A stretch of DNA of 64,000 bases from Caballeronia concitans (GTDB lineage: Bacteria > Pseudomonadota > Gammaproteobacteria > Burkholderiales > Burkholderiaceae). A program made the position numbers and the translations under genes. The stretch spans positions 39,629 to 103,628 of the forward strand of contig NZ_FCNV02000016.1 of NCBI RefSeq assembly GCF_001544615.1, given 5' to 3'. Of this stretch, positions 8,997-33,335 are shown one piece after another (the first letter of the stretch is position 1; every line of letters begins with the position of its first letter). Below the pieces are notes generated by a model. It saw only the letters and a list, made by a program, of their open reading frames with translations. It searched no databases and was not told where the DNA came from.

Positions 8997-8997
8997 G

Positions 8998-9678: not shown

Positions 9679-10644
9679 TCACGCATCTTGCTGATGAAAC
9701 ATCGAATAAATTGTGTTGCGCAACCACGCCACGCCCGGATCGCTCGTGAATTGCGAATGCGAGTGCACCTGAATCTCGATGGGCGGCAGGGCGAACGGCA
9801 AGGGCAGAATGCGAAAGGCTTTACCGCGATTCAGGCGCTGCGCAATGCTTTTAGGGAAGATGACGGCTAGGTCCGTGTTCGTTACGATCTCTGGCGCCAC
9901 AACAAAATGCGGCAGTTGGACCACGACATCGCGCTTGAGATTGAGCTCGTCGAGCCATTGTTCGACCATTCGATGGCCCGTCGCGTTGGTGCTCGCGTTG
10001 ACGTAGCGCAAGGCGGCCAAATCTTCGCGTGTCGGCCGTGACTTGCCTAACGGATGGTTTGCGCGCACCACGCAGACATGGTGGTCGACGAATAGTGTCT
10101 GGCTCACGCAACCCGCATCGAGACCCGGCACGTAGCCCAAAGCCAAATCCACTTCGCCAGAGCGCATGGCCGCACTGACGGATTCCACCGGCAGATTGAC
10201 CGCTTCGATTCGTATGCCGCACGCCTCGCGGTCGAGTAGCGCTACTAGCGGCGGCAGAAAAAAGAATTCCGACATGTCCGACATCGAAATTCGAAACACG
10301 CGCCGGGCGGTAGCGGGATCGAATTTGGCGAGTTGCTGGACAGCGTCATTGATGATCGACAACGCCTGCGCGAGCGGCGGATATAGGCGATGCGCGGCAT
10401 CGGTAGGCACCATGCCGGTGGGGGTGCGCACAAAGAGTGGATCATCAAAGATCGTGCGCAAGCGCCTTAGTGCATGACTGACCGCCGGCTGTGTCAGTTC
10501 CAGACGGTCGCCTGCCGCGGTCGTGCTGCGCAGATCCCAGATGGCGAGGAACACGCGCAGCAGATTCAGATCGGCGATACCGGAGTTGAGCTTCGTCATA
10601 CACGGTTGACTCACGAACAAGCGCTGGTCGCGCCATGCGGCCAT
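9679..10644 (-). CDS. LysR-family transcriptional regulator
   Basis: LysR regulator of the NahR/SyrM-like type. The N-terminal winged HTH starts at DLNLLRVFLAIWD and contains LTQPAVSHALRRLR and the FDDPLFVR signature; the rest is the effector-binding domain. An ATG at 10644 gives a TGATG overlap with the upstream EthD-like gene, suggesting that the regulator is the last gene of the minus-strand arm. A second candidate ATG at 10599 (MTKLNSGIADLNLL) removes 15 residues and fits the family N-terminus better. It is clearly paralogous to the LysR protein at 15242-16150, sharing most HTH residues and the motif FDPAT-x(3)-FR-S-MSD. Confidence 0.9.
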   Translation of the reverse strand: MAAWRDQRLFVSQPCMTKLNSGIADLNLLRVFLAIWDLRSTTAAGDRLELTQPAVSHALRRLRTIFDDPLFVRTPTGMVPTDAAHRLYPPLAQALSIINDAVQQLAKFDPATARRVFRISMSDMSEFFFLPPLVALLDREACGIRIEAVNLPVESVSAAMRSGEVDLALGYVPGLDAGCVSQTLFVDHHVCVVRANHPLGKSRPTREDLAALRYVNASTNATGHRMVEQWLDELNLKRDVVVQLPHFVVAPEIVTNTDLAVIFPKSIAQRLNRGKAFRILPLPFALPPIEIQVHSHSQFTSDPGVAWLRNTIYSMFHQQDA

Positions 10645-11318
10645 CAATGTTTGGCGAGATTACCGTATGTGCTGCGCATTGCAAAATGGGGGGTAGCTCC
10701 CTGATAGGGCGGCAAGGTATAGAAATCGCGCCGCATCGATTCGCGCACCGGTGAGGCGAGTGCGGCGGCGAGCGCGGACGCATCGTCGAAGACGACCTTG
10801 TTACGCTGCATCGCATCGGCGCGCGGACATGACAGGCCGCTCGTGCAATCGATGCGTGTGTAAATCTCCAACTCGCGCAATGCCGGCAAGGTGGACATCA
10901 GCGGCGCGTGATGCTGTAGGTAATGCGCGAGCCATGTGTTGAAGTCCTCCGCCGGCCCTTCGTACGCGACGAGGTAGGTGCAACGCTGAAAGCACGCTTG
11001 GGTAGCTGGCTCGTGGGTGACGAGAGCGCGCACGGCCATGACTTGCTGCGTGAAGCGCCCGGCGATCAAAGGTTCTCGAAGCGCGCGATGGATCGGACCA
11101 TCAAGCCTGGTCGCAGCCTCGAGCGCGGCCAGTTCATCGAAATACAGCTGAAGCACACACGATGGCGCATCGGCTGCCAGCGCAATGCGCGGATCGACGC
11201 GTTCTGCTAACGGCTCATGCAGCAGTAGGCTGCGCAGGCCGTCGATGCCCTGCAACGGCGCAATATCGGGCAGCGATGGCTGCCCGCTCGCACCGATCAA
11301 AAACAGGCAGACTTGCAT
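10644..11318 (-). CDS. EthD-domain-like protein
   Basis: 224-aa protein starting MQVCLFLIGASGQPSLP, immediately after the flavin reductase gene (2-base gap). The C-terminal half has an EthD-like stretch (AHYLQHHAPLMSTLPALRELEIYTR); such dimeric ferredoxin-like domains are common accessory proteins in ring-oxidation clusters. A longer ORF extends to 11630 but is an alternate-frame read of the reductase gene. It may handle an unstable hydroxylated product of the neighbouring monooxygenase; that role is inference. Confidence 0.75.
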   Translation of the reverse strand: MQVCLFLIGASGQPSLPDIAPLQGIDGLRSLLLHEPLAERVDPRIALAADAPSCVLQLYFDELAALEAATRLDGPIHRALREPLIAGRFTQQVMAVRALVTHEPATQACFQRCTYLVAYEGPAEDFNTWLAHYLQHHAPLMSTLPALRELEIYTRIDCTSGLSCPRADAMQRNKVVFDDASALAAALASPVRESMRRDFYTLPPYQGATPHFAMRSTYGNLAKH

Positions 11319-11320
11319 GG

Positions 11321-11839
11321 TCACGCGGCCTCGCAGGAAGCGGCCGCGCGCGCGAGCCGATGGAACTGCCGGCCGAAGTACACAAGACCATCGCCGTCTT
11401 CTCGCGAGCCGATGTGCTCGACTTGTACGAACAGCACCGAATGCGAACCGACCTGCTTGCTGTCGACGATACGGCCTTCGAGACTCGCGATGGCATCGTC
11501 GAGCACGGGAAGATGCAGTGCGCCCGTCCGCGAGCCGCAGCGCGAGAAGCGTTCTTCCATCGAGCTTCCATCCATGCCCGCAAACATCCGCGCCAGTTCC
11601 TGCGCGTGCGCGCCGAGCACGTTGATGCACGCGCTGCCGTTACCGAGCAGCACGTCGTGAACATAGCTCGACTGATTGATGCAGACGAGCATCGTTGGTG
11701 GCGTATCCGTCACGGAGCAAACGGCGCTTGCCGTGATACCGCAACGTCCGTGCGGGCCGTCCGTGGTAATGACGTTGACGGCCGCGCCGAGCGAGGCCAT
11801 TGCGTTGCGAAACTGCGCGCGCGATTGATCGTGGGTCAT
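11321..11839 (-). CDS. Flavin reductase (HpaC-like) of a two-component monooxygenase
   Basis: 172-aa flavin reductase domain protein (FRNAMASLGAAVNVITTDG, GITASAVCSVTDTPPTMLVCIN, INVLGAHAQELARMFAG). Family members use NAD(P)H to reduce free FMN or FAD for a separate oxygenase. The oxygenase is encoded 28 bases upstream in the same operon. Length matches stand-alone HpaC/HsaB-type reductases. Confidence 0.9.
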   Translation of the reverse strand: MTHDQSRAQFRNAMASLGAAVNVITTDGPHGRCGITASAVCSVTDTPPTMLVCINQSSYVHDVLLGNGSACINVLGAHAQELARMFAGMDGSSMEERFSRCGSRTGALHLPVLDDAIASLEGRIVDSKQVGSHSVLFVQVEHIGSREDGDGLVYFGRQFHRLARAAASCEAA

Positions 11840-11867
11840 GGCTCATGTCCTCTCAGGGTTCGCGGGT

Positions 11868-13058
11868 TCAGGGATACGGTGTGACAGGCGGAATGCCGAC
11901 GAAGAGTGCGCCCGATGCGTCGTAATTGCCTTCGCCGAGGAAGGCGTGTTGCGTGACGACGATCGAATCGCGTATCAAACGCTGCATCCGGTTCTCGCGA
12001 TAGATGGCGCCGATGCCCGCCATCTTGTACGCCTGCATCACGATATCGGCGCAGGTGTGGGCCGCATGCGTAGCAGATAGACGCAATAGATTGGCTTCTG
12101 CAGGCAACACCGGGTCACCAGCGAGCACGGTGCGCCAGGATGCTTCCGCGGACTCGAAGAAGAATGCCCGCGCGCTGCGCAGTTGCGCTTCTGCCTTCGC
12201 GAGCCCCGAACGATAGTAGGCGCGATCGGCGAGACGCGGTGCACCCGTCGTGGTCTTTGTCACGCCGGACATCCCCGCCAGCAGGTCGAGCGCAGCTCGA
12301 GCCAGCCCGATATTGACTGCCGCATGCACCTGTGCCTGATAGGCGATGGCGGGATACCGATATAACGGTTCATCGATCAACGGCGTACCGCCGCGCACGA
12401 AGGTCCATTGCTCGTCGACGAATTTGTCTTTCAGACGCAGATCGTGGCTGCCCGTGCCCTGCATGCCGACCACGTTCCAATTCTCGACGATCTCGACTTC
12501 GCTCGCCGGAAAGACCGCAGTGAACGGCTTGCCGGCGTTCTTGTCGTCCGCGCCGGCTGGTGCGCCGCCGATTCCGACGCCGATCCAGTCCGCCCCCTTG
12601 CAGCCGCTGGCGAAGCGCCACTGTCCCGACACACGGAACCCGCCGGGCGCACGTTCGGCCTTCTGCAGCGGATACAAGCCTCCCGCGAAGACCTGATCGG
12701 GACCGGTCGCATAAATTTGGGCCTGCGTTTGAACCGGCAGTGAGGCAAGGTACGTGCTGGCGGAGCCGAACGCCGCGACCCAGGCGGTCGATCCGTCCGC
12801 GATCGCGATACGTTCGAGCATCTCAAGAAAACGCGCGGGCGGCAGCGGGTCGCCGCCGAAACGTTTAGGGGTGCTTGCGCGAAAAATGCCGGCTCGCTTC
12901 ATCTTGCCGACCATATCGCGCGGCACGTGAGACAGGACATCGAACTCGTCGCGGCGGCGCTCGATCTCTTCGATGAGCACATCAAGCGGCAGAGGTCCGG
13001 CGTACTCGGGATAGTCGTCTTGTGAGTCGACGATGGCTTCGCTTTGAACGGCGTGCAT
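11868..13058 (-). CDS. Acyl-CoA-dehydrogenase-fold flavin-dependent monooxygenase (oxygenase component)
   Basis: 396-aa class D flavoprotein monooxygenase, related to HsaA, HpaB-like C2 enzymes and indole/IAA oxygenases such as IacA and IifC. Visible family features are the N-terminal helical region (FRASTPKRFGGDPLPPARFLEMLERIA), GSTAWVAAFGS, the beta-domain WRFASGCKGADWIGVG and the C-terminal helices ending EGNYDASGALF. With the reductase it should hydroxylate an aromatic ring using reduced flavin and O2. Given the pathway downstream, conversion of anthranilate or a related aminoaryl compound toward 3-hydroxyanthranilate is a plausible role; the sequence alone does not establish the substrate. 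Confidence 0.85.
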   Translation of the reverse strand: MHAVQSEAIVDSQDDYPEYAGPLPLDVLIEEIERRRDEFDVLSHVPRDMVGKMKRAGIFRASTPKRFGGDPLPPARFLEMLERIAIADGSTAWVAAFGSASTYLASLPVQTQAQIYATGPDQVFAGGLYPLQKAERAPGGFRVSGQWRFASGCKGADWIGVGIGGAPAGADDKNAGKPFTAVFPASEVEIVENWNVVGMQGTGSHDLRLKDKFVDEQWTFVRGGTPLIDEPLYRYPAIAYQAQVHAAVNIGLARAALDLLAGMSGVTKTTTGAPRLADRAYYRSGLAKAEAQLRSARAFFFESAEASWRTVLAGDPVLPAEANLLRLSATHAAHTCADIVMQAYKMAGIGAIYRENRMQRLIRDSIVVTQHAFLGEGNYDASGALFVGIPPVTPYP

Positions 13059-13090: not shown

Positions 13091-14443
13091 TCATTCGGGT
13101 TGCCGACGTCCATCGGCGCGCATTGCTTTGGGAAACGTCTCACGTGCCAGCAACGTTGCGACGACGGTGGTCAGCCCCAATACGCCCAGATAGATGGCGA
13201 CCGGCATCGCGCTGTGATAGTGGGCGAGCAGCATGGTGGCGATCATTGGCGAAAGGCCACCACCAAGTACGGAAGAAACTTCCCGGCCAATGCCGAGTCC
13301 AGAGAAACGCAGGTGGACTGGCAACATCTCGCTGATGAATGCGGGCTGCGCGCCTTGAAGAATGCCAAGCGTGATGCTGTTGGTAAGGACGAGCGCCGCA
13401 ACCACCTTCCAGTACTCGCCTGAGCCGAGCAGTGCGAAGTACGGCCATCCAACGAGCACGATGGCGATCGCGCCGGCGAGATAGACCGGCTTGCGACCAA
13501 CCTTGTCGGTCGCCCAGCCAAAGAAAAGTGAAACGGGTATCGACAGCAGCATCGAAATGCACAGACCGCTCAGAATCCAGCTCGACTTGATGCCGAGAAA
13601 CTGCCCGTAGGCAATTGAAAATGCGAAGAAGAGGTAGGACGCCGCACCCTCGCCGAAACGTAGGCCGAACACGGTGAGCACTTCGCGCGGACATTGGCGC
13701 ACCACTTCGATGACAGGCATCCGGCTTCCGTGGCGCGTCGCCTTAGCTTCGGCGAATGCGGCGCTTTCGCCGACGGAGCGGCGCATCCACAAGCCAAGGA
13801 GAACGAGTGCGGCGCTAGCAAGAAACGGTAGGCGCCATCCCCAGCTCTGGAAGTCGCCCGCTGGCAAGTTCTGCACGAGAAGGAACGCAGCAGTGGACAG
13901 AACGAACCCGAGTGCCGCGCCACACGGGCTCCATGCCGAGAGTGCGCCGCGCTTCGATTGCGGCGCGTTCTCGTGGATCAACAAGATACTCCCGCTCCAT
14001 TCGCCGCCGGCCGCGAGCCCCTGAAGAGTCCGCAAAAGAACCAGCATTACCGGGGCGGCAATACCGACCTGCTGATACGTTGGCAAAACGCCCATTAAAA
14101 CAGTGGCGGTGCCCATCGTGAGTAGCGTAAGCATCATTACAACCTTGCGGCCGTGCCGGTCGCCGATATGGCCGCATAGCACTCCCCCTATGGGTCGCGC
14201 GATGAAGCCAACCGTGAAGCCACCGAATGCAGCGATGGTGCCCGTCAATGGGTCAGTGCCAACCGGAAAGAACAGCTTGCCGAAAACAAGTGCGGCCGCG
14301 GTGCCGTACAAGAAGAAGTCATACCACTCAAGGATTTGACCGAGCACTGCTGTGGTGACGGCACGGCGAACGTTGCTTGCAGGACGGGCGGATCGGGTTC
14401 CAACGAGCGTACCCAGATCAGGATTCAGAGCGTCAGGGTTCAT
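13091..14443 (-). CDS. MFS transporter, MHS (metabolite:H+ symporter) family
   Basis: 450-aa, 12-TM symporter of the MHS family. LEWYDFFLYGTAAALVFGKLFF opens TM1, the inter-TM2/3 motif is GHIGDRHGRK, and a second copy, GWATDKVGRKPVY, lies between TM8 and TM9. The chosen start (MNPDALNPD) gives a normal MHS N-terminus; an upstream ATG at 14458 adds five residues, and the much longer ORF to 14827 has no family support. It is the first gene of the minus-strand catabolic arm and probably imports the aromatic acid substrate. It is paralogous to the symporter at 17984-19327. Confidence 0.9.
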   Translation of the reverse strand: MNPDALNPDLGTLVGTRSARPASNVRRAVTTAVLGQILEWYDFFLYGTAAALVFGKLFFPVGTDPLTGTIAAFGGFTVGFIARPIGGVLCGHIGDRHGRKVVMMLTLLTMGTATVLMGVLPTYQQVGIAAPVMLVLLRTLQGLAAGGEWSGSILLIHENAPQSKRGALSAWSPCGAALGFVLSTAAFLLVQNLPAGDFQSWGWRLPFLASAALVLLGLWMRRSVGESAAFAEAKATRHGSRMPVIEVVRQCPREVLTVFGLRFGEGAASYLFFAFSIAYGQFLGIKSSWILSGLCISMLLSIPVSLFFGWATDKVGRKPVYLAGAIAIVLVGWPYFALLGSGEYWKVVAALVLTNSITLGILQGAQPAFISEMLPVHLRFSGLGIGREVSSVLGGGLSPMIATMLLAHYHSAMPVAIYLGVLGLTTVVATLLARETFPKAMRADGRRQPE

Positions 14444-15241
14444 AGTGAAGGGAAACATGAGGTGATAGTTCCCGCTTCCCTGAGGCTTAAGAAGCGGCGC
14501 GGGTCGTACCGATGCGATGGGCCCAAGATATGAGCCCGGACAGGGCTCGGTCAAATTCGGGACAAAAATACCCCCTATGAATCTGATGCATAAGGTTTCA
14601 GTGTCATAGGTACTAACCCGTGATTCGTCGTGGATTTCATTGCGCTTTTCGCCCATTATGGTTTTTCGCTTCTTGGCCGTAAGGCACGAGCGGACACGCA
14701 GTGCGCGGCGCATCATTTGTCGTACTGCCTCAAATACCCACGTGTGAGACTTGCCTTCGTGACTTCTCACGGCCGTTCGCGGTTGCCGGCCGGCACACGC
14801 ATAAGCCGCGGCGACCCTGTGCGGCATTGTCGAGACCGCTTCAACCGGCCTTGAACCTAGCGCTGCTAAAACCGAGCGGCGTTATTGAGCGCAGCCCTTG
14901 CGGCTGAAGGGTTGGGAAGAGGTTGCTGGCGCGTTTATGGCCCTGTTTGCGCTCCAGAGCGGCTCTATCTTGGATGACGACTCGCTTTCGCGAAAGAGCC
15001 GCGGCTGAACGAAAGGCTTCATGTTCGGATACCACGCTTGCGCGGCTTGCCGACGCACCTCCGCCATTGCCCTAACCGTTCTCCGATTCGCCAATGGCAG
15101 CTTCAAGCGCGCTGTTGGGGTTGCGCTCGGAAGCGGCTGCGCATGGTTGCCGAGCGCGATCGGGCTGAACGCCGCGACTGTTCGGCAGTTGACCGAGCAA
15201 CGGCGGAAGCTACAGCATGAGAGGAGTGGGTGCGCGCGCGC
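14444..15241. other. Intergenic region upstream of the symporter operon
   Basis: About 800 bases with no convincing gene. It holds a perfect hairpin GAGCCC-GGACA-GGGCTC (14532-14548) and an inverted repeat CCTATG (14574-14579) / CATAGG (14605-14610) 25 bases apart, which could be a LysR-type regulatory site for the minus-strand operon. The part from about 14880 to 15240 looks like coding-type GC-rich sequence in no continuous frame and may be decayed gene sequence; I could not identify it. Confidence 0.4.
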
Positions 15242-16150
15242 TTAGTCGCGATGCAGCGTATCGATGACCAATTCGCGGAACCAACGGATCCCTTCGTCAT
15301 TGTCGAAGTTGCGATGCCAATGGACGGTGGATTCGATGTCAGGAATTTCAGCGGGCATTGGATAGATCATGAAGTGGCCGGTTTCATTGAACATTTGGGC
15401 GGCTCCACGGTGAAGCGTCACCATCCAGTTCGTGCGCTGTAAAATCTGCGGAACGACCGTGAAATGCGGTACGCGCAATGCAATCCGCCGATGTAGACCT
15501 TGACTGCGCAAGACCTCGTCGATCGCCAGATGGCTACTGTCACTCGTCGTCACGGTGACATGTAAGAACTCCAGAAATTTTTGTCTCGATAGCGTTCGAA
15601 CTGGCAACCCAGGGCGCTTGCGCGTCATGCAGACGAACTGATCGCGGAACAGCAGCGCGTGGTTCGTGACCGGCATCAGCGACGGAAGATTGCCTATGGC
15701 GAGATCGATCTGGCCAAGTCGCATTTTTTCCTCCACGTCGCGCACCGGTATCTGCTCGGTCGACAGACGGATGTGAGGTGCTACGCGCTGAAGTCTTTCG
15801 CAGATAGGCGGCAGAAAGACATGTTCACCGATATCAGACATCGACAAGCGGAACTCACGCGTCGTCGTCGCAGGATCGAATTGTTCACTCTCACGCAGTG
15901 CTTCGCGAATCGAGGCAATGGCACTGCCAAGGGGCACCGCCAGTCTCTCCGCAGTAGGAGTCGGGAGCATGCCGTCCGGCGTGCGGACGAACAGCGGATC
16001 ATCGAACAACGACCGCAGGCGCCCCAGCGAATAGCTGATCGTTGGCTGTGACAACTCGAGCCTTTGCCCAGCACGCGTGAGACTGCGCTCTTCGAGGATC
16101 GCCTGGAAGACGCGTAGCAAGTTCAAATCGACCTGATGGAAATTGACCAT
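15242..16150 (-). CDS. LysR-family regulator of the aromatic-amine cluster
   Basis: 302-aa LysR regulator starting MVNFHQVDLNLLRVFQAIL; the HTH contains LELSQPTISYSLGRLR and FDDPLFVR. The longer ORF to 16303 crosses the divergent promoter and was not used. It is divergent from the CoA-ligase gene with 88 bases between starts, and that gap contains a palindrome suited to LysR binding. It is the likely activator of the long plus-strand operon, responding to a substrate or intermediate. Paralogous to the regulator at 9679-10644. Confidence 0.9.
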   Translation of the reverse strand: MVNFHQVDLNLLRVFQAILEERSLTRAGQRLELSQPTISYSLGRLRSLFDDPLFVRTPDGMLPTPTAERLAVPLGSAIASIREALRESEQFDPATTTREFRLSMSDIGEHVFLPPICERLQRVAPHIRLSTEQIPVRDVEEKMRLGQIDLAIGNLPSLMPVTNHALLFRDQFVCMTRKRPGLPVRTLSRQKFLEFLHVTVTTSDSSHLAIDEVLRSQGLHRRIALRVPHFTVVPQILQRTNWMVTLHRGAAQMFNETGHFMIYPMPAEIPDIESTVHWHRNFDNDEGIRWFRELVIDTLHRD

Positions 16151-16182
16151 GTCGATGTGGGGTAAAAAATTGATTGATTTGA

Positions 16183-16197
16183 CCGATATGCTATCGG
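16183..16197. promoter_or_regulatory. Candidate LysR operator in the divergent promoter
   Basis: Perfect inverted repeat CCGATA-TGC-TATCGG between the divergent lysR (start 16150) and CoA-ligase (start 16239) genes. Dyads in such short divergent intergenic regions are typical LysR autoregulation and activation sites. No footprint data; assignment is by position and symmetry. Confidence 0.6.
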
Positions 16198-16238: not shown

Positions 16239-17861
16239 ATGGAATTGACAGAAACAGTCGTCGAACAGCGCGCAGAGCAGCCGAGGCTCTTTTCATCACG
16301 CACGTTGCCGGCCTTGCTTGCAGCGCGCGCGGCGCGAAGCGGTAATCAACCTCTCTTCTCTGATGGGTCGACCGTATGGAGCGGTGCCGATGCCCTCGAG
16401 ATCGCATCGCGCCGCGCCGGTTCACTGGCCGCTCATGGCGTGAAGCGGGGTGATCACGTCGCGCTGCTCTGCGGGAACCGGACCGAGTTCATGGAGATGG
16501 TCCTTGGCTGCGGATGGCTTGGAGCTGTCGTTGTTCCGATCAACACGGCCTCGCGCGGCCCGCAGCTCGAACATATTCTTCGTAACAGCGGCGCGCGCTT
16601 GCTCGTCGCCGAAGCGCATCTCGTCGATGTTGTTCACGCGCTTTCAGCGAACGACCTTCCGTTGCAGCGCATCTGGATCATCGACGAACCTACGGCAGAC
16701 TCTCATTCCCCTGCGTACGAGACGATCGCACTTCCGCCGGCGGCGGAGCCTATCGCAGCTGGCGAAATCGGAGACGGAGATCCGTTCGCGGTGCTTTATA
16801 CGTCTGGCACGTCGGGTTTATCCAAAGGCGTGATCTGCCCACACGCCCAGTTCTACTGGTGGGGACGTAACACCGGGGGCGGTCTTGGCGTGGTCCCAGG
16901 CGACGTGCTGTACACCTGCTTGCCACTCTTCCATACCAACGCGCTCAACAGCTTCTTTCAGGCGTTGGTGAACGATGCACATCTCGTTGTTGGCCGGCGT
17001 TTCTCGGCGAGCGGCTTCTTCGATGCGCTAGTGAACACTCAGGCGACCGTTACCTACGTTCTCGGTGCAATGGTGCCAATCTTGTTAGGGCGGCCGGCAA
17101 CGGCCAACGAGCGACGCCATAAAGTGCGCGTCGCGCTTGCGCCGGGCGTGCCGGGGCATTTTCAGAAAGAGTTCACGGACCGCTGCGGCATCGCATTGAT
17201 CGACGGCTACGGCTCGACGGAAACCAACTCCGTGATGGGCGGCGACGTCAGCGCTCACCGCCCCGGATACATGGGCAAGCTGAATCGGGGCTTCGATGCG
17301 CGGGTCGTAGATGAACATGACCAACCGGTGGCGGACGGCGAGCCTGGCGAACTGATCCTGCGTGCCGATGAGCCGTTTTCCTTCGCGAGCGGCTACCTGG
17401 GCATGGCGGGCGAGACGGTCAAAGCCTGGCGCAATCTATGGTTCCACTCGGGCGACCGTGTGATTAGGGAATCCGATGGCTATTACCGATTCGTTGATCG
17501 ACAGAAGGACGCCATCCGCCGGCGCGGCGAAAACATCTCTTCGTACGAGGTCGAACAGGTGTTGCTGAGCCACCCTTCGGTCGAGACCGCCGCGGTCTTC
17601 GCCGTCAAGTCGACGCTCGCCGAAGACGAAGTGATGGCCGTAATCGGTCTGCGCGATGGCGAGGCGTTAGAACCGCTCGATCTAGTCCGCTATTGCGAAC
17701 CGCGACTGCCTTACTTCGCAGTACCTCGTTATCTCGACTTCGAACAAGAACTGCCGAAGACGGAGAACGGCAAGATCCAGAAGTTCAAATTGCGCGAGAC
17801 CGGCGTCACGGCGACAACATGGGATCTCGAAACTTCCGGATATCGGCTCAAACGGCGATGA
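16239..17861 (+). CDS. Acyl/aryl-CoA ligase (AMP-forming)
   Basis: 540-aa class I adenylate-forming enzyme. Core motifs are present in order: P-loop YTSGTSGLSKGV (about residue 187), GYGSTE (about 325), FHSGDR (about 405), RRRGENISSYEVEQ and the C-terminal catalytic Lys in KTENGKIQKFKLR. It activates a carboxylic acid as the CoA thioester via an acyl-adenylate. The start MELTETVVEQ follows AGAGG; an in-frame extension to 16143 crosses the operator. First gene of the plus-strand arm, so it likely activates the imported aromatic or side-chain acid. It resembles CaiC-like ligases more than benzoate-CoA ligases, but the substrate cannot be read from the sequence. Confidence 0.9.
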   Translation: MELTETVVEQRAEQPRLFSSRTLPALLAARAARSGNQPLFSDGSTVWSGADALEIASRRAGSLAAHGVKRGDHVALLCGNRTEFMEMVLGCGWLGAVVVPINTASRGPQLEHILRNSGARLLVAEAHLVDVVHALSANDLPLQRIWIIDEPTADSHSPAYETIALPPAAEPIAAGEIGDGDPFAVLYTSGTSGLSKGVICPHAQFYWWGRNTGGGLGVVPGDVLYTCLPLFHTNALNSFFQALVNDAHLVVGRRFSASGFFDALVNTQATVTYVLGAMVPILLGRPATANERRHKVRVALAPGVPGHFQKEFTDRCGIALIDGYGSTETNSVMGGDVSAHRPGYMGKLNRGFDARVVDEHDQPVADGEPGELILRADEPFSFASGYLGMAGETVKAWRNLWFHSGDRVIRESDGYYRFVDRQKDAIRRRGENISSYEVEQVLLSHPSVETAAVFAVKSTLAEDEVMAVIGLRDGEALEPLDLVRYCEPRLPYFAVPRYLDFEQELPKTENGKIQKFKLRETGVTATTWDLETSGYRLKRR

Positions 17862-17983
17862 AGTGACTGCGCACTGTTCCCGGAGGCCTTTGAGAAGCTC
17901 CGGAACGGGACGACCTGGGCAACGCATGCCAAGCGAAAAGGCAACATCGAGTACATCCGACGGATGTACACATGGAGACTCTG

Positions 17984-20518: not shown

Positions 20519-20820
20519 CACTCAAAGTATTCCAGTGCGAACAGTGCGGTTCAACCGTGTTTCCTGCGCGCTATCTCTGCTTCGAATGCGGTGGCGCCAA
20601 GTGGCGCGAGCGAGTGGCCGAACGCGGCAGTGTCGACGAAATGACAACCGTGCGCCGTCGCGTCGGCGCACAAGAGGGCGGGGACGTGCTCATTGCGAGC
20701 GTGACTACGGATGCAGGCCCGATCGTCATCGCGCGACTCGAGCGCGTCGTGCGCGCTGGTGACGCCGTCAGCCTTGCAATCGACGAACAGAACCGCGTTT
20801 TTGCCCTGCCGGTTGCCTGA
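20515..20820 (+). CDS. DUF35 / OB-fold zinc-ribbon partner of the thiolase
   Basis: 101-aa protein with an N-terminal zinc ribbon (FQCEQCG ... YLCFECGG; four Cys) and a short OB-like fold. This is the standard organisation of DUF35 proteins, which bind thiolase-like or SCP-x enzymes and often CoA ligands. It overlaps the thiolase stop by ATGA. The larger ORF starting at 19975 is an alternate-frame read through the thiolase gene. Confidence 0.85.
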   Translation: MTLKVFQCEQCGSTVFPARYLCFECGGAKWRERVAERGSVDEMTTVRRRVGAQEGGDVLIASVTTDAGPIVIARLERVVRAGDAVSLAIDEQNRVFALPVA

Positions 20821-20932
20821 CCGACGAGGCAATCGTTCGTGGAACGATGCGGGCGCATCGCGGTAGGCGTCAGGATTCACGCAGCTTCGAGAAGTGCACG
20901 GAAAGGCAAATTCAATCGAGCAGGAGAAGAGA

Positions 20933-22423: not shown

Positions 22424-23426
<1,003 letters not shown>

Positions 23427-24486: not shown

Positions 24487-25189
24487 AGGCTGCGTAGCAT
24501 TCGTGACAGGCGCCGACCGTGGGCTCGGTGCGGGACTGGTCGAAGCGTTGTTGAAGCGAGGCGCACGCAAGGTTTATGCGGGCGTCAAGGAGTTGGGAGG
24601 CGTCGCTGACGGCGATCCGCGCGTCGTACCGGTTGAAATAGACATCACGAACATCGGACAGGTGGCGAGGGCGGCGTCGAACGCCAGAGACACCACGCTA
24701 CTCGTTAACAACGCAGGACTGAACCGAACCCAGCCGGTACTAGAGGCCAATGACGCAGAAGCGGCGCGCGCCGAGATGGAAGTGAACTACTTCGGGACCT
24801 TGAACATGATGCGCGCGTTTTCGCCCGCGCTCAAATCGGACGGCGGCGCCATCATCAATATTCTCTCGATACTCGCGCGCGTCGCCCTGCCGTCGATGGC
24901 GTCGCTAAGTGCATCGAAGGCTGCGGCCCTTCGAATGACGGAAGGCGCGCGAGCCGAACTCGCGCCGCATCGCGTCCGGGTTGTTTCTGTCCTTCCCGGA
25001 CCGATCGACACGGAAATGAGCCGGAACGTCCCGCCCCCGAAAATCCCGGTCGGAGAAGCAGTCGACGCCGTGCTTGCAGCATTGGAAGGCGACGCGGACG
25101 AAGTCTATATGGGCACGATGGCACAGGAAATCGCTCGTGGATTGGCCGCGGATCGTCAGGCCCTGCACGCGCGCCTTTTGACGCTCTGA
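24476..25189 (+). CDS. Short-chain dehydrogenase/reductase lacking the catalytic Tyr
   Basis: 237-aa Rossmann-fold SDR: cofactor motif TGADRGLG at residues 11-18, NNAG near 78-81 and Ser131 in INILS. At the YxxxK site Lys148 is present, but the Tyr position is Leu144 (SLSASKAA; codon CTA at 24905-24907). A protein lacking that Tyr is unlikely to be a standard oxidoreductase. SDRs (IacE, IifB) also accompany acyl-CoA-dehydrogenase-fold oxygenases in indole-type clusters, so a related non-redox role is possible. It overlaps the ACMSD gene. Confidence 0.85.
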
Positions 25190-25241: not shown

Positions 25242-26480
25242 ATGAACGGTGAATACATTGACATTGACGCTGGAAACGGCCAAACCTTCTATGCATATCT
25301 CGCGCGGCCGCGGCAAGGTTCGGGACCGGGCTTGATCCTGTTGCAGGAAATCTTTGGCATCAACGCCTACATGATGGATATGGCCGATCGATTTGCCGAA
25401 GAAGGCTACGTCGTGCTCGTGCCTGATCTGTTCTGGCGCATGAAGCCTGGCGTCAATCTCGGCTACACCGGCGAGGACTTCGCCACGGCGCTGCGATATA
25501 ACAACGAGTTCGATGTCGATCTCGCGATGAGGGACATCTCGTCGACGATCAAGAGCCTCCGTTCGCTCGAGCAACACGTTGGAAAAGTCGGCGCGGTGGG
25601 CTATTGTCTGGGCGGCAAACTCGCGATGCTGGCTGCCGCACGCACCGATGTCGACTGCGCCGTGAGTTACTACGGTGTGGGACTCGATGCGTATCTGGAT
25701 GACGCGTCGTCGATCCGATGCCCGATGGTTTTCCATTTCGCCGGGGAAGACGCACTTTGTCCCGAGGCAACACGCGAGACGATCCAGTCGGCACTCTCTA
25801 AAGTACCTGGAGTCGAACAGTACGTGTATTCAGGGTGTGACCACGCTTTTGCGACTCCGCAACGTGAACACTTCGACAAGCCGGCCGCGATGATGGCTTA
25901 TTCGCGCACTATCGCGCTGTTGCGCAAAGTGCTCGGACCCATCTACGACCTGAATTCTCTCTGGGAACTGCACTGCTACCACGAGTTCGATTCGCGCGAT
26001 GTCGATGCGATCTTGCCAACCATGGTGGCCGCTCCGTATGTCAATCACGTGCCGACCATGACGGGCGGAGTAGGCTACAAGGATCTGAAACGGTTCTACA
26101 AGTATCACTTCGTTCACGCCAATCCGGCGGACACGCATTTCATTCCAGTCTCGCGCACCATCGGCGCGGACCGCATCGTCGATGAGTTCATTTTCTGCGC
26201 CACTCACGATCGCGAAATTGACTGGATGCTTCCCGGGCTCGCGCCCACTGGAAAGTACATCGAGATTCCGATGCTCGCCGTGATCTGCTTCCGAGGGGAC
26301 AAGCTCTATAACGAGCACATCTACTGGGATCAGGCGTCGGTCCTGGTACAGATTGGCGTTCTCGATCCCACAGGGCTGCCGGTCGCCGGAATCCAGACCG
26401 CCAAGAAAATGATCGATGAGACCCTGCCAAGCAACGCGCTGATGAGGAACTGGGAGTCGAGCGCAGGGAAGCCGATCTGA
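25242..26480 (+). CDS. Dienelactone hydrolase fused to a SnoaL/NTF2-like domain
   Basis: 412-aa two-domain protein. Residues 1 to about 235 are a dienelactone hydrolase: Glu36 in LLQEIFGIN, nucleophile Cys122 in GYCLGG, Asp170 in AGEDALC and His201 in GCDHAF. Residues about 240-400 form a SnoaL-like, NTF2-fold domain (LWELHCYHEFDSRDVDAILPTM ... NEHIYWDQASVLVQIGVLD). Hydrolysis of a lactone or enol ester is expected of the first domain. Neither domain is a known step of the 3-hydroxyanthranilate route, so the fusion probably belongs to the unknown upper pathway. Confidence 0.88.
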   Translation: MNGEYIDIDAGNGQTFYAYLARPRQGSGPGLILLQEIFGINAYMMDMADRFAEEGYVVLVPDLFWRMKPGVNLGYTGEDFATALRYNNEFDVDLAMRDISSTIKSLRSLEQHVGKVGAVGYCLGGKLAMLAAARTDVDCAVSYYGVGLDAYLDDASSIRCPMVFHFAGEDALCPEATRETIQSALSKVPGVEQYVYSGCDHAFATPQREHFDKPAAMMAYSRTIALLRKVLGPIYDLNSLWELHCYHEFDSRDVDAILPTMVAAPYVNHVPTMTGGVGYKDLKRFYKYHFVHANPADTHFIPVSRTIGADRIVDEFIFCATHDREIDWMLPGLAPTGKYIEIPMLAVICFRGDKLYNEHIYWDQASVLVQIGVLDPTGLPVAGIQTAKKMIDETLPSNALMRNWESSAGKPI

Positions 26481-27825: not shown

Positions 27826-28611
27826 ATGAGCACCATTCTAGAAAGAATTGTCCAACTCAAGACTCAGGAGGTCAGGCTGGCTCGCGAGCGCATGCCGCTT
27901 CCCGAACTAAAGAAGATCGCGACGACCGGAGATGTCAGAGATTTTGCCGGTGCGTTGCGCGCGAAGAGTAGCGCGGGCCTGCCCGGCGTCATAGCCGAGG
28001 TGAAAAAGGCCAGCCCGGCGCAAGGCGTTCTGCGGCTGGACTTCGAGCCTGCCAGCATCGCACGCTCATACGAGCGGGCGGGTGCGGCATGCCTTTCGGT
28101 ACTGACGGATCGGGATTTCTTCGGCGGAAGCGCATCAGATCTTCGTGCCGCACGTTCGGCCACATGCCTTCCGGTGCTTAGGAAGGACTTTATCGTCGAC
28201 GCGTACCAGATTTGGGAGGCGCGTGCTATGGGAGCCGACTGCATCCTCCTTATCGCAGCGCTGCTCGATGTTCACGCGATAAAGGGACTCGAAAGCGTTG
28301 CGTCTGACCTTGGGATGGCGGTGATCGTCGAAGTGCACAACGCCGCGGAGGCGGAAAGGGCGCTTGCGCTGAAGACACCTCTCATCGGTGTGAACAACCG
28401 CGATCTCAAAACGTTCGAGACGTCCGTCGCGACAACCATTGCACTTCGGCACCTGATACCCGAGGACAGAACCGTCATTTCGGAGTCCGGCATTCGATCC
28501 CGAGACGATGTGAAGATGCTTCGTTCGATCGGGGTCAACAACTTTCTCGTTGGCGAAGCACTGATTCGAGCCGAGGATCCCGGCGCGGCGCTTGAGAGCA
28601 TGTTCTTTTAG
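27826..28611 (+). CDS. trpC: Indole-3-glycerol-phosphate synthase (paralogue inside a catabolic cluster)
   Basis: 261-aa IGPS, the tryptophan-biosynthesis enzyme that closes the indole ring of CdRP. Catalytic motifs are intact: [35 protein letters not shown] and ISESGI. Length is normal. It is not next to trpD or trpG, but sits between a porin and the meta-pathway hydratase, in the same direction. It is therefore probably an extra copy; either a pathway-linked role in indole or anthranilate balance or a chance insertion is possible. Confidence 0.9.
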
Positions 28612-28670
28612 GTCGTGTCCCCGTCGCTGGAATGACGTTCGTTGTCGACTTTGGAGAGATTAAAAAGCTT

Positions 28671-29468
28671 ATGGACACTCAACAGGCTGCGGCCGCGCTG
28701 CGCGATGCAGCAATGACACGTAAGTGTATCGCGCCACTGCGTGAGACCTATGAACATATGAGCATCGAGGATGCTTACGCGATCCAACGTATCAATACTG
28801 ATCATCATCTTGCCAACGGTCGCCGCCTGGTAGGGTGCAAGATTGGCTTGACCTCGCTGACTGTGCAGAAGCAACTCGGGGTCGATCAGCCCGACTTTGG
28901 CATGTTGTTCGACAACATGGGCTATGGCGACGGAGAACCCATTCCCGTCTCGATTCTCCACCAACCGAGGATCGAGGCCGAGATCGCTTTCGTCATGGGC
29001 CGAGATATCGAAGTGCCGAATCCGGGCCACGTCGACGTTCTGAATGCGGTCGAGTACGCATTGCCAGCACTCGAAATCGTGGGTAGTCGCATCGCCGACT
29101 GGAATATCCGCATCACCGATACGATCGCTGACAACGCATCGTCGGGCGCGTACGTGCTAGGCAGCGCGCCGCGCAAGCTATCGAGTTTCGACTTGCGTCT
29201 TTGCGGGATGTCGATGGAACGGCAGGGAAGTCTAGTATCCGTAGGTGCCGGAGCGGCATGCCTGGGAAACCCGCTCAATGCGGTTGTTTGGCTAGCACGA
29301 ACGATGACTGCGCGTGGCACGCCCTTGAAGGCGGGCGACCTGGTTCTATCAGGCGCATTAGGGCCTATGGTCGGCGTCAACCCCGGCGACGCCTTCGAGG
29401 CACGGATAAGCGGTCTTGGTTCCGTGCGCGCACTTTTCGATCACGACGTGAGTAAGGCACATCAATGA
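28671..29468 (+). CDS. nbaH: 2-oxopent-4-enoate (2-hydroxypenta-2,4-dienoate) hydratase
   Basis: 265-aa hydratase/decarboxylase family enzyme (MhpD/XylJ/AmnF). Motifs: [51 protein letters not shown] and [12 protein letters not shown]. It hydrates 2-hydroxypenta-2,4-dienoate to 4-hydroxy-2-oxovalerate. The start [13 protein letters not shown] is preceded by GGAGAG at a longish distance; an in-frame ATG at 28632 is the alternative. It is coupled (ATGA) to the related decarboxylase gene; these two proteins often form a complex. Confidence 0.9.
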
Positions 29469-30232
29469 TCAATGTTTTGGAATATGCAATGCTGCTCGAT
29501 GAGGCGGCAGTGAATGCGACAGAAGTTTCGCAGTTCGATCCTGCAGGGCGTCTGTCGCTTGATACGGCGTATGCCATTCAGGCCGCGTCCATTCAACGGC
29601 GCATCGAACGAGGCCAGCGGCGCGTAGGTGTGAAGATGGGCTTCACCAGCCGCGCCAAGATGGCTCAGATGGGCTTGTCGGATGTGATCTGGGGGCGTTT
29701 GACGGCTGACATGCAAGTTGAGGAGGGCACGGCAATCGATTTCTCGCGCTTTGTGCATCCGCGCGTTGAACCGGAGATCGCTTTCATCTTGAAGCGACCG
29801 CTTGAAGGCGACGTGACTGCCCCACAAGCGTTGGCCGCAGTCGAAGCTATCGCTCCCGCGCTTGAGATCATCGACTCGCGATACAAGGACTTCAAGTTCT
29901 CACTGCCAGAAGTGATAGCGGACAACGCGTCGTCTAGCGGCTTCGTAATCGGTGCCTGGCGTGACCCGCACATCGATTTTTCTAACCTTGGTCTAACCCT
30001 GAACATCGATGGGCGCGTCGTTCAAGTCGGATCAACGGCTGCATTGCTTGGTCATCCGCTCCGTTCACTGGTAGCCGCGGCGCGTGTTTCCGCTCGAGCG
30101 GGGGAGCCGCTGCAAGCAGGGTGGATTGTGATGGCCGGCGGCGCGACTCCGGCTGAATGGATCAGGCCCGGACAACATGTTTCGGTCGACATGGAACAAC
30201 TGGGAAGCGCGAGTTTCAACGTCAAAGACTGA
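29465..30232 (+). CDS. nbaG: 4-oxalocrotonate decarboxylase
   Basis: 255-aa member of the same hydratase/decarboxylase family but of the XylI/AmnE/NbaG branch ([66 protein letters not shown]). It decarboxylates 4-oxalocrotonate, the product of 2-aminomuconate deaminase, to 2-hydroxypenta-2,4-dienoate. Overlaps the hydratase stop by ATGA. A 48-base gap precedes the acetaldehyde dehydrogenase. Confidence 0.9.
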
Positions 30233-30280
30233 AGCAACGCCCTGTGTTGCTTTTGCGACCAGTCACATTTGGAGTCACAC

Positions 30281-31243
30281 ATGAACGACAAGGTAAAAGT
30301 CGCCATTATTGGGCCTGGCAACATCGGAACCGATCTAATGATAAAGGTGATGCGTAATAGCAGACACCTGCAGATGGCTGCGATGGTCGGCGTCGACCCG
30401 AGGTCTGAAGGATTGGCTCGTGCGGCACGTATGGATGTAGCGACGACCGCAGAAGGCATCGACGGTCTCTTGAAACTCGATGTGTTCAAGGAAATCGATA
30501 TCGTATTCGATGCGACGTCAGCAGGGGCGCACAGACGCCACAATGACGTATTGCAGGCTCATGGCATCCAGGTGATTGACCTGACTCCTGCCGCGATCGG
30601 CCCGTATGTAATTCCCGCGATCAATCTCGAAGACGAGAACGCGACAAATATGAATATGGTCACATGCGGCGGTCAGGCCACGATTCCTATCGTCGCTGCG
30701 GTCTCGCGTGTTGTCAAGGTCCACTATGCAGAGATCGTTGCATCCATCTCCAGCCGATCGGCAGGGCCAGGCACGCGCGCAAATATCGACGAATTCACAG
30801 AAACGACACGCGCTGCGATCGAAGCGTTGGGAGGTGCGGCACGCGGTAAAGCCATCATCGTGCTGAATCCGGCAGAGCCGCCGTTGATGATGCGTGACAC
30901 CGTCTTCGTCTTGTCCGAACAAGCCGATAAGGCAGTCATTGAGGCAAGCATCACTGAGATGGTGCGCAAGGTACAGATGTACGTTCCAGGATACCGCCTT
31001 AAGCAGGCGGTGCAGTTCGACGAAATTCCTCCGGACACGCCGCTCAACGTACCGGGGCTTGGATTGAAGCACGGTCTCAAGACATCGGTGTTTCTCGAGG
31101 TGGAAGGCGCAGCGCATTATTTGCCTTCGTATGCAGGCAATCTCGACATTATGACGTCGGCTGCACTCGCCTGTGGTGACATGATGGCAGAGCGCCGGAT
31201 CGCCGCTGGCATCGCGCGCGGATACAAGGAGACGACGCAATGA
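30281..31243 (+). CDS. nbaJ: Acetaldehyde dehydrogenase (CoA-acylating)
   Basis: 320-aa MhpF/XylQ/AmnH-type enzyme. Rossmann motif GPGNIGTDL near residue 11, catalytic Cys in [12 protein letters not shown] near residue 128, and [13 protein letters not shown]. It oxidises acetaldehyde to acetyl-CoA and normally forms a channelled complex with the aldolase encoded next. TTTGGAG precedes the ATG; the in-frame upstream extension has no support. Overlaps the aldolase start by ATGA. Confidence 0.94.
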
Positions 31244-32304
31244 CTTCTGTTAGCAAAACACTCTACATTTCCGACGTTACCCTGCGCGATGGCAGCCACG
31301 CAATCCGTCATCAATACAGCATTGCGCAAGTGAAGTCGATCGCTGCGGCGCTCGACGATGCCGGGGTTGACAGCATTGAGGTCGCCCACGGTGACGGTAT
31401 CGAAGGATCGAGTTTCAACTATGGATTCGGCGCCCACAGCGACGTCGAGTGGATTGCCGCCGCTGCCGAAAGCGTCAATACTGCGAAAATCGCCACGCTG
31501 CTGATACCAGGCATCGGCACCACTCACGATCTGCGCCATGCCTTCGATGCAGGTGCGCGGGTGGTACGCGTCGCGACGCATTGCACCGAAGCCGACGTAT
31601 CGCGCCAGCACCTCGAGTTTGCTCGCGAACTTGGGATGGACGCGGTCGGCTTTCTCATGATGAGCCATATCACTACGCCCGAAAAGCTTGCCGAGCAGGC
31701 CAAGCTGATGGAAAGTTTCGGCGCGACGTGCGTGTACGTCGTCGATTCTGGCGGTGCGCTGGGCATGAACGATGTCAGAGATCGATTTCGCGCATTCAAG
31801 GATGTGCTAAGCGCCAGTACGCAAACTGGGATGCATGCGCATCACAATCTAAGTCTCGGTGTCGCGAATTCGCTGGTTGCCGTGGAGGAGGGCTGTGATC
31901 GCATCGATGCGAGTTTGGCCGGCATGGGCGCCGGCGCAGGCAACGCGCCACTAGAAGTTTTCATTGCAGCGGCCGAGCGACAGGGCTGGAATCACGGCTG
32001 CGATCTATACCGGCTCATGGACGCTGCTGATGATCTCGTCCGTCCGCTGCAGGATCGGCCGGTACGTGTCGATCGCGAAACGCTTGCGCTCGGCTATGCC
32101 GGCGTCTATTCCAGCTTCTTGCGTCATGCCGAACTCGCGGCCGACAAGTACGGCCTGAAGACCGTCGATATTCTGGTCGAACTGGGCAGACGGAAAATGG
32201 TGGGCGGTCAAGAAGACATGATCGTCGATGTCGCACTGGATCTGCTCAAGAACAGGTCATGGCAACCAGTGCGTCAAGCGTTGTCCGCAAACGAAGCAGC
32301 GTGA
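31240..32304 (+). CDS. nbaI: 4-hydroxy-2-oxovalerate aldolase
   Basis: 354-aa MhpE/XylK/AmnG-type class II aldolase. N-terminal [16 protein letters not shown], metal-binding [13 protein letters not shown] and [10 protein letters not shown] are all present. It cleaves 4-hydroxy-2-oxovalerate to pyruvate and acetaldehyde and pairs with the acylating dehydrogenase. It completes the path from 3-hydroxyanthranilate to central metabolism. Confidence 0.95.
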
Positions 32305-32393
32305 CTGTCGTGGCGGCGTCTCTGCCGCCAATGACGTTCACCACCTCTTCACAGCGCGGCATTGATCTACCACCCCCTTTGCGTTGCGTCATC

Positions 32394-33335
32394 ATGCACA
32401 GTCTATTGGCTTCTCATCAGCATCAGCCGCTCGTGTATCAACTTCGAATAGGCGATGTCAAAGTCACTGTGATCGCTGAATCAGTGGCACCCCTGTTGCG
32501 ATGGCAGGAGATCTATCCTGACGCAACGGAGCAATCCATGTCGGCATCCCGCGCGTCTTCTGATCGCAAGTTGTACGACGTGCGCAGCGGGCGGCTAGTC
32601 ATCGCCATACAGGCTTTCCTGATAGAAAGCGAGAGTATAAGGCTGATGGTGGATACGTGTGTCGGGGACTGCAAGGAAAGAGCGCGGCCCGAGTTCAATC
32701 ACGCAAGGTTCGGCTGGCTGGATCGGCTCGAGGCCGATGGCGTCGGCGTCGACGATATTGATCTGGTGCTGGCCACTCATTTGCACGTTGACCACGTAGG
32801 GTGCAACACGTACTACGAAGACGGCAGGTGGCGGCCTACCTTCCCGAAGGCGCGGTACCTTTTCGTTAAAGAAGAGTTCGATTTCTGGACGAGTGAATCG
32901 GCCGAGTCGCCACTCGAACGCACGGGAGACTACATCGGAGACAGCATTCTGCCGTTGTTTGAGGCGGGGCAAGCCGATATCATCGGTCATCGACATGTCA
33001 TCAATTCGTCAATTCACTTGATTCCACTCCCGGGGCACACGCCAGGTCACGTCGGAGTTTGCATCGAAAGCGAAGGACGGCGGGCAGTCATCTCTGGCGA
33101 TCTGTTCCACACCCCTTTTCAATGCGAACAACCGGACTGGAATACCAGATTCTGTGTCAATCCTGAGCAGTCTCGGCAATCAAGACGCGCGTTCTTCGAA
33201 ACCCACGCCGACACTGAAACCATAATAATTCCCGCGCACTTTCCCTACCCATGTGCTGGTTCCATCCATCGCATGGGTAATGGTGCGTACGAGTTTCGAT
33301 TCATCAGCGTTGACAAGGTTCTGGATATTCTCTAG
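32394..33335 (+). CDS. Metallo-beta-lactamase-fold hydrolase
   Basis: 313-aa MBL-fold protein with the full metal site: THLHVDHVG (HxHxDH), PLPGHTPGHVG, SGDLFHTP and PAHFPYP near the C-terminus. The family includes lactonases and thioester hydrolases. The start MHSLLASHQHQPLVYQL fits; the in-frame extension to 32259 overlaps the aldolase gene and reads as filler. It is the last gene of the plus-strand arm and may hydrolyse a lactone or CoA-thioester intermediate; the substrate is unknown. Confidence 0.85.
   Translation: MHSLLASHQHQPLVYQLRIGDVKVTVIAESVAPLLRWQEIYPDATEQSMSASRASSDRKLYDVRSGRLVIAIQAFLIESESIRLMVDTCVGDCKERARPEFNHARFGWLDRLEADGVGVDDIDLVLATHLHVDHVGCNTYYEDGRWRPTFPKARYLFVKEEFDFWTSESAESPLERTGDYIGDSILPLFEAGQADIIGHRHVINSSIHLIPLPGHTPGHVGVCIESEGRRAVISGDLFHTPFQCEQPDWNTRFCVNPEQSRQSRRAFFETHADTETIIIPAHFPYPCAGSIHRMGNGAYEFRFISVDKVLDIL

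Follow-up and report, generated by a model that had tools for sequence, protein, structure and literature searches.

What feeds a complete pathway for meta-cleavage of 3-hydroxyanthranilate (3-HAA) that has no kynurenine gene beside it? The question is raised by positions 9679-33335 of a 64,000-nucleotide stretch of Caballeronia concitans DNA (assembly GCF_001544615.1, contig NZ_FCNV02000016.1, positions 39,629 to 103,628; hereafter the window), which lies on contig C10 of the 6.17-Mb genome. A preliminary description had named anthranilate, an indole- or quinoline-derived acid or another 2-aminoaryl compound as possible feeders. Comparison with related loci narrowed the indole-derived acid to an oxindole-3-acetate-type acid, which, judged from gene families and neighbourhoods, the upper genes probably convert to an anthranilate-type product. 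More tentatively, and with somewhat less than even confidence, we favour the reading that the cluster degrades an oxidised, ring-7-hydroxylated indole-3-acetate, such as 7-hydroxy-oxindole-3-acetate, to 3-HAA, the hydroxyl being already on the substrate.

The region comprises two divergent gene sets, one on the minus strand from a major facilitator superfamily (MFS) transporter to a LysR regulator, the other on the plus strand behind a divergent second LysR gene. Its features are, with coordinates in the window:

9679..10599, minus: LysR regulator 1 (HTH_1 and LysR_substrate), accompanying the flavin monooxygenase (FMO) genes in relatives
10644..11318, minus: EthD-like protein, 224 aa (TIGR02118 on a longer reading; start trimmed)
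11321..11839, minus: flavin reductase of a two-component monooxygenase (PF01613, Flavin_Reduct; 60% to IacG-position gene)
11868..13058, minus: FMO of acyl-CoA-dehydrogenase fold, IacA-type (65% to IacA-position gene)
13091..14443, minus: MFS transporter 1, mfs1 (2A0106 metabolite/H+ symporter type)
14548..14556, minus: ATTTGACCG site, about 112 bp upstream of mfs1
15242..16150, minus: LysR regulator 2, lysR2, divergent from the main operon (49-54% to LysR proteins adjoining iac-type genes)
16177..16185, plus: ATTTGACCG site in the lysR2/coaL gap
16239..17861, plus: acyl-CoA ligase, coaL, putative IadF-like role (NF004808, 868 bits against a cut-off of 722)
17972..19327, plus: MFS transporter 2 (62-69% paralogues adjoining iac-type genes)
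19352..20518, plus: thiolase-fold protein, proposed retro-aldolase, putative IadG-like role (Cys83, Gln327)
20515..20820, plus: DUF35/ChsH2-like partner, Zn ribbon and OB fold (PF12172 above, PF01796 below cut-off)
20894..22423, plus: 2-aminomuconate semialdehyde dehydrogenase (above cut-off for TIGR03216, 2-hydroxymuconic semialdehyde dehydrogenase; substrate from context)
22420..22845, plus: RidA-family 2-aminomuconate deaminase (by family and position)
22842..23426, plus: 3-hydroxyanthranilate 3,4-dioxygenase (3-HAO; NF009763 and TIGR03037 above cut-offs)
23452..24486, plus: aminocarboxymuconate semialdehyde decarboxylase (ACMSD) of the amidohydrolase family (PF04909; by position)
24476..25189, plus: short-chain dehydrogenase/reductase (SDR) paired with the IifA homologue, at a guess an isatin-to-dioxindole reductase
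25242..26480, plus: IifA-type protein, dienelactone-hydrolase (DLH) domain and weak SnoaL match, proposed oxygenase from hydroxydioxindole to 3-HAA
26552..27712, plus: trimeric porin (PF13609)
27826..28611, plus: second indole-3-glycerol phosphate synthase, TrpC paralogue (NF001373 above cut-off)
28632..29468, plus: 2-oxopent-4-enoate hydratase (NF008461 above cut-off)
29465..30232, plus: 4-oxalocrotonate decarboxylase (TIGR03218 below cut-off)
30269..31243, plus: acetaldehyde dehydrogenase, acylating (TIGR03215 above cut-off)
31240..32304, plus: 4-hydroxy-2-oxovalerate aldolase (TIGR03217 above cut-off)
32394..33335, plus: metallo-beta-lactamase-fold (MBL) hydrolase, lactonase/organophosphorus-hydrolase type (47-50% homologue in a related operon of four Pandoraea)

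The gene-order comparison with sequenced relatives that had been proposed shows the run from coaL to the decarboxylase in identical order in seven other genomes (L005, L007, L008, L032, L107, L220, L221). The nearest cluster relatives are Caballeronia, including plasmid p1 of Caballeronia sp. Sq4a (source Anasa tristis), and the genome bearing the closest cluster is likewise a Caballeronia. The two-component FMO and EthD protein named in the preliminary description are both present, with the correction that the reductase is a separate gene (11321-11839, minus strand) overlapped by a too-long EthD reading; an oxygenase without reductase was rejected for this reason. The trpC paralogue (27826-28611) and the porin (26552-27712) were missing from that description. 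The EthD protein has no Pfam match and gave no BLAST hit against the protein in the IacB position, which speaks against its being IacB.

In the pathway that we propose, the acid would be imported via porin and MFS transporter; where needed, the IacA-type monooxygenase, together with its reductase, would take it as far as a 3-hydroxy-oxindole. After activation by the CoA ligase, the beta-hydroxyacyl-CoA would undergo retro-aldol cleavage by the thiolase-fold protein and its ChsH2-like partner, which would yield 7-hydroxyisatin and acetyl-CoA. The SDR would then reduce the 7-hydroxyisatin, and the ring of the resulting 7-hydroxydioxindole would be opened with O2 by the IifA-type protein to give 3-HAA, which the linked meta-pathway would carry to central metabolites. 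The extra TrpC would guard tryptophan synthesis from 3-HAA, a possible false substrate. What the sequences show are the gene families, their conserved arrangement and the swapping of modules between loci; each reaction, the substrate, the place of its hydroxyl and the function of the extra TrpC are inferred. 3-HAA is anthranilate with a hydroxyl at the position of indole C7; from a substrate with a 7-hydroxyl, the same upper enzymes would therefore yield 3-HAA directly. Both 7-hydroxylated (maize) and 5-hydroxylated (rice bran; methyl ester, glycosides) oxindole acetates are reported in the introduction of PMC9458244, and these are the positions that the two ring-cleavage modules treated below would need. 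The parts of the cluster are known; their combination, in what is a recurring cluster, was not found described in the open-access literature, where, among the papers listed, our search also found neither bacterial breakdown of 7-hydroxy-oxindole-3-acetate nor formation of 3-HAA from it, which is no proof of absence.

The lower pathway was described correctly: all eight enzymes of 3-HAA meta-cleavage are encoded in one cluster by open genes within 9679-33335. Measured against NCBIfam cut-offs, 3-HAO scores 286 bits (cut-off 220) and 263 bits (146), the semialdehyde dehydrogenase 866 bits (693) and the hydratase 360 bits (350), and acetaldehyde dehydrogenase and aldolase each exceed at least one cut-off as well. 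The score is 72 bits (cut-off 106) for the deaminase, which belongs to the RidA family, and 227 bits (cut-off 351) for the decarboxylase, which is homologous to DmpH, and ACMSD is matched among the models by Pfam Amidohydro_2 alone; because they fall below cut-off or match Pfam only, these three were assigned by family and gene order.

That no kynurenine gene lies in the cluster also held. Kynureninase and tryptophan dioxygenase (TDO) each have one match genome-wide, both on contig C20, and no formamidase or kynurenine 3-monooxygenase (KMO) was found among the open reading frames (ORFs) scanned. The genome does hold kynurenine genes, C20 carrying kynureninase, TDO and, judged by position, a 208-aa ORF where kynB would be. 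The eight strongest of 24 FAD_binding_3 matches resemble families other than KMO, an absence that is provisional because no KMO model was used. For an antA-type anthranilate dioxygenase the best match in the genome reaches 459 bits, below the cut-off of 672 (the AndAc type was not searched for). The eight lower steps are common to kynurenine-type 3-HAA clusters and to nba, the 2-nitrobenzoate pathway with a 3-HAA meta-pathway. The window cluster differs from the former in lacking an adjoining kynureninase and, provisionally, KMO, and from nba in that no nitroreductase is among its assigned genes.

Could the 3-HAA genes then serve 3-HAA from another source, the kynurenine route or the environment, and merely share a locus with an oxindole-acetate operon? 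Within the family, 82 of 398 genomes have 3-HAO, and 20 of these neighbourhoods were read: two are of the window type, eight have a KynU homologue near 3-HAO and ten have neither. The frequency of KynU in these other clusters speaks for another source, as do kynureninase and TDO on C20 and an operon of P. sejongensis (L006) that has the same order minus the two 3-HAA blocks, 3-HAO lying elsewhere in that genome, a picture that would fit gain of the blocks by an anthranilate-forming operon or their loss from it. We nevertheless hold this explanation to be improbable, as eight genomes have the 3-HAA genes and the others intermixed in a single run and the pairing recurs in actinobacteria. In other 3-HAO clusters (L222-L227, L230, L231), KynU is 53-55% identical to the KynU of the source genome and stands beside a gene of about 465-475 aa, permease-like by its first residues in L222 and L230; a 465-aa gene in this position, considered as KMO, was dropped on that reading.

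The upper genes centre on the thiolase-fold protein. Its PDB matches include 6ok1, named a lipid-transfer protein, which we take to be the steroid retro-aldolase complex Ltp2/ChsH2, and the adjoining DUF35 gene encodes both ChsH2 domains, one below cut-off. Thiolase catalysis depends on a nucleophilic Cys and the His of a GHP motif. At the His position, 81 of 82 aligned proteins have Gln (Gln327 in the window); the position of Cys83 is variable (Cys 55, Thr 11, Ser 6, Gly 3, Pro 3, Ala 2, Arg 1, Leu 1; in eight loci with 3-HAO, Cys 5 and Thr 3). Because of the Gln and the variable Cys position across the family, this is, as far as the alignment tells, not a family of ordinary thiolases, and the two features together with the ChsH2-like partner suggest retro-aldol cleavage. 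By analogy, such a cut of dioxindole-3-acetyl-CoA would yield isatin and acetyl-CoA. According to HMMER, Cys83 of the window protein aligns with the Cys of acetyl-CoA acetyltransferase and with a Gly of 6ok1; the label 'Cys-less thiolase', used at one stage for this protein, was withdrawn.

A CoA ligase and a 'ketothiolase' acting after dioxindole-3-acetate, as we propose for the window cluster, are also found in iad (Variovorax, Alcaligenes, Achromobacter, Bradyrhizobium), in which mutants and annotation assign CoA activation to IadF and removal of the acetyl side chain to IadG, by the account in PMC12633357. In contrast, the Rieske-type IadCDE, IorAB and the isatin-hydrolase-like cyclase IadI are absent from the scanned genes of the window cluster, and iad ends in anthranilate, not 3-HAA. 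Genes of the Rieske, IorAB and cyclase types occur in other loci of the window's thiolase family.

The 'hydrolase fusion' of the preliminary description is, by its sequence, an IifA-type protein. It is 55% identical over 412 of 412 residues to the DLH protein of an A. baumannii stretch (L205) whose five consecutive ORFs encode DLH, SDR, styrene-monooxygenase-type, flavin reductase and Phenol_MetA proteins, an order that together with approximate lengths fits Table 2 of PMC4577076 (which lists no Pfam match for iifC). It matches PF01738 and, weakly, SnoaL (24.7 bits, cut-off 28.4), the fold given for the C-terminal domain of IifA in PMC7225977. IifA converts 3-hydroxyindolin-2-one (dioxindole) to anthranilate, as stated in PMC6221969. 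The IifA-type protein is thus common to the window cluster and the iif/ind/dhoAB systems of Acinetobacter and P. syringae WHOP. The styrene-monooxygenase-type IifC and IifB types were not found in the window cluster, whose FMO is of the acyl-CoA-dehydrogenase fold, and iif is fed by indole, the window cluster apparently by CoA-ester cleavage. SDR and IifA travel together, in 24 of 25 SDR-bearing loci.

The same domains leave room for a reading in which the substrate is a non-indole beta-hydroxy or beta-keto aryl acid, the thiolase a true one and the IifA-type protein an ordinary hydrolase: the N-terminal domain of the latter has the dienelactone-hydrolase fold, Cys83 is present, and plasmid pBN1 of Paraburkholderia aromaticivorans (L206) has an SDR-DLH pair for which the annotation shows no thiolase within 12 kb. 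Against it stand the mutual exclusion of IifA type and isatin hydrolase around one thiolase family and the iac-type paralogues of four genes, and we regard it as very improbable. The pBN1 pair is flanked by genes for an M20 peptidase, a kynureninase-like pyridoxal phosphate enzyme and a cupin protein, and perhaps belongs to another oxindole pathway.

This exclusion is seen when loci are compared by module. We scored 81 loci, namely 78 named loci found through the thiolase (among the best 80 of 93 confirmed stretches) and three plasmid loci; counts depend on thresholds, loci cut by contig ends and shared ancestry. The IifA type is present in 31 loci, the isatin-hydrolase type in 14 and both in none (hypergeometric 5e-4, kinship ignored; unchanged at lower identity limits). 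For the cyclase of a 3-HAO locus, isatin hydrolases are the best solved relatives (PDB, E=1e-72). 3-HAO with ACMSD occurs in eight loci, five with IifA (L005, L007, L008, L032, L107) and three with isatin hydrolase and a thiamine pyrophosphate (TPP) enzyme (L053, L055, L109), and in a tree of the thiolases the loci with 3-HAO are split between two parts far from each other. A gentisate-type dioxygenase occurs in four, with IifA in L039, L068 and L072 and with isatin hydrolase and TPP enzyme in L066; all four also carry FAA-hydrolase, carbon-nitrogen-hydrolase and Amdase-family genes and may represent a 5-hydroxy-indole-acetate pathway, in which we read the dioxygenase set as a putative maleamate branch for 5-hydroxyanthranilate. 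All 12 ring-cleavage loci have a ring-opening gene, IifA or isatin hydrolase (Fisher 8e-4, kinship ignored). The two ring-cleavage types never co-occur; 69 of the 81 loci have neither. A Gordonia locus, which speaks for the proposed pathway, unites the 3-HAA pathway with ligase, thiolase, MFS, isatin hydrolase and TPP enzyme and has no oxygenase among these genes, a P450-like ORF (by its first residues) lying farther out.

The source of the 7-hydroxyl is the weakest step of the proposed pathway, and here the FMO matters. FMO and reductase are 65% and 60% identical to the IacA- and IacG-position genes of an iac-type locus in P. sejongensis (L188), whose neighbours (125-aa protein, SnoaL, amidase, SDR) make up the iac set as published. 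On the same contig, 12 kb off, is a window-type MFS1-FMO-reductase-EthD-LysR1 set, and in L192, L193 and L195 this set adjoins Rieske genes of the iac-type kind. With iac of P. putida 1290 and Caballeronia glathei the window cluster has the IacA-/IacG-type pair in common, and its LysR2 and MFS2 have paralogues adjoining iac-type genes. Unlike iac, of which the published end product is catechol, it contains no IacB, IacE, IacH, IacI or Rieske IacC/D type, its ORFs belonging to other families. The kinship with iac, and orthologues of the FMO in two genomes with no 3-HAO match (G003, 82%; G008, 94% over residues 202-396 only, a short ORF), lowered the standing of the FMO as an anthranilate 3-monooxygenase, an analogy drawn in the preliminary description.

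A related alternative is that an unhydroxylated substrate (indole-3-acetate, oxindole-3-acetate or dioxindole-3-acetate) gives anthranilate, and that the linked FMO then makes 3-HAA by hydroxylating it ortho to its amino group. The FMO also matches the phenol ortho-hydroxylases HsaA and p-hydroxyphenylacetate hydroxylase; it adjoins the main operon in the window, in four relatives (L005, L007, L032 and B. cenocepacia) and on one plasmid; and an orthologue (77-95% outside the window) is present in all eight genomes with the TrpC paralogue, in five within the cluster. We still consider this rather unlikely, given the iac kinship and the two genomes just mentioned, one of them with a partial match, and given that the actinobacterial 3-HAA loci read have no FMO, two of those genomes having a 46-51% homologue elsewhere. 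A close FMO orthologue is missing from four further genomes in which related operons occur (G004, G006, G010, G011). Alternatively, the upper genes might give anthranilate and a hydroxylase encoded elsewhere in the genome 3-HAA. No cluster gene is obliged to set the 7-hydroxyl and the genome has several FAD hydroxylases; against this stands that the pattern recurs in two phyla with two ring-opening modules, and that the gentisate-type module would require a second unlinked hydroxylase, so that we rate this idea as distinctly unlikely.

Further points weigh against a substrate that arrives with its 7-hydroxyl, or against individual steps. Neither a gene of the cluster nor any other part of the sequence dictates that group, and 3-HAA might instead be formed from anthranilate by a hydroxylation at a later stage. 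A ring-cleavage module of either kind is missing from 23 of the 31 loci with IifA and from 10 of the 14 with isatin hydrolase, which means that the upper genes are also used for substrates with no 7-hydroxyl. The module counts and statistics ignore shared ancestry. The gentisate-type dioxygenase has gentisate 1,2-dioxygenase as its best solved relative (E=4e-152), and its reading as part of a 5-hydroxyanthranilate branch therefore rests on its neighbours. As to the enzymes, Cys83 is retained and thiolase catalysis could persist in the window protein; ligase and thiolase were likened to IadF and IadG by family and described role, not by sequence; the SDR has no match to the iif SDR and is 30% identical to the IacE-position gene, which gives no support to its being IifB or IacE; no IacE-type gene for the step from oxindole- to dioxindole-acetate was identified in the cluster; and MBL hydrolase and EthD protein fall outside the proposed steps.

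The TrpC paralogue belongs to the indole-3-glycerol phosphate synthase family (366.7 bits against a cut-off of 317, NF001373). It is not the sole copy, another being on contig C2, and nothing supports a new enzyme, since the catalytic motifs look unchanged by eye in an alignment based on what we take to be the catalytic positions. Three other residues set the paralogues apart: K66 and A146 are identical in 19 of 19 other TrpC copies and replaced in six of six paralogues, and N193 is replaced in four of the six. The paralogue is present in eight of the 398 family genomes, in the cluster each time, and these eight are exactly those with the closest thiolases (at least 89%); all have 3-HAO, seven of them within the cluster. 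Paralogues of relatives are 70-93% identical to the window copy, and the window copy is 44-62% identical to housekeeping copies. Plant TrpD homologues accept 3-HAA, according to PMC10520873. We propose that the paralogue may clear or tolerate 3-hydroxy intermediates.

A sequence motif suggests that the two gene sets may be regulated jointly. All 12 related loci have ATTTGACCG at a distance of 111-140 bp upstream of mfs1, and all 12 aligned lysR2/coaL gaps retain ATTTGAC, seven of them with the full nonamer. The window has four matches against 0.46 expected, two of them in promoter gaps, for a motif picked after it had been sighted.

Several observations concern the surroundings of the cluster. 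A carboxylesterase-family gene near it in B. cenocepacia and Sq4a (L133:15235-16866, L107:9659-11320) might free esterified auxin products. Pandoraea loci L019, L022, L077 and L079 have a related operon with the MBL gene and no 3-HAA genes in the locus, followed in L019 by a set of further genes, two of which proved to be of the PaaA/PaaC family when scanned. Just beyond LysR1 (9417-9475, plus strand) is a match to the Betaproteobacteria toxic small RNA RF02278 (50.8 bits, gathering score 50), and at 2842-9170 a DNA-repair group (IMS-family polymerase, SRAP peptidase, LigD) adjoins the cluster; ligD and an SOS-peptidase gene likewise adjoin a 3-HAA cluster on plasmid pLRE138 of R. erythropolis. 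Large genes at 39720-61427 resemble a defence or restriction island, with a 1317-aa protein (DrmMI/type IIG methylase matches), a 932-aa DpdE/DrmD-like helicase, a 1704-aa DruE-like protein, an HNH-type protein and a WYL protein.

The usual interpretation of a 3-HAA cluster is a tryptophan/kynurenine or nitrobenzoate pathway; the swapping of modules across 81 related loci allows this one to be linked to auxin-type oxindoles. It is possible, if on balance doubtful, that bacteria of two phyla possess mosaic pathways that degrade ring-hydroxylated products of auxin disposal in plants, in which a constant core of CoA ligase and thiolase-fold/DUF35 proteins is joined by a ring-opening module (IifA type, or isatin hydrolase and TPP enzyme) and by a ring-cleavage module matched to the hydroxyl site (3-HAA for 7-hydroxyl, as in maize; gentisate-type dioxygenase and maleamate-type genes for 5-hydroxyl, as in rice), the Burkholderiaceae 3-HAA version adding TrpC against poisoning of tryptophan synthesis by 3-HAA. 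If the proposed pathway is true, it would constitute a bacterial sink for plant-made hydroxylated oxindole acetates and provide concrete enzymes for removal of the acetate side chain, and the ring-cleavage gene beside the ligase/thiolase core would mark the position of the hydroxyl. A pathway-bound TrpC would exemplify catabolic self-protection from an antimetabolite.

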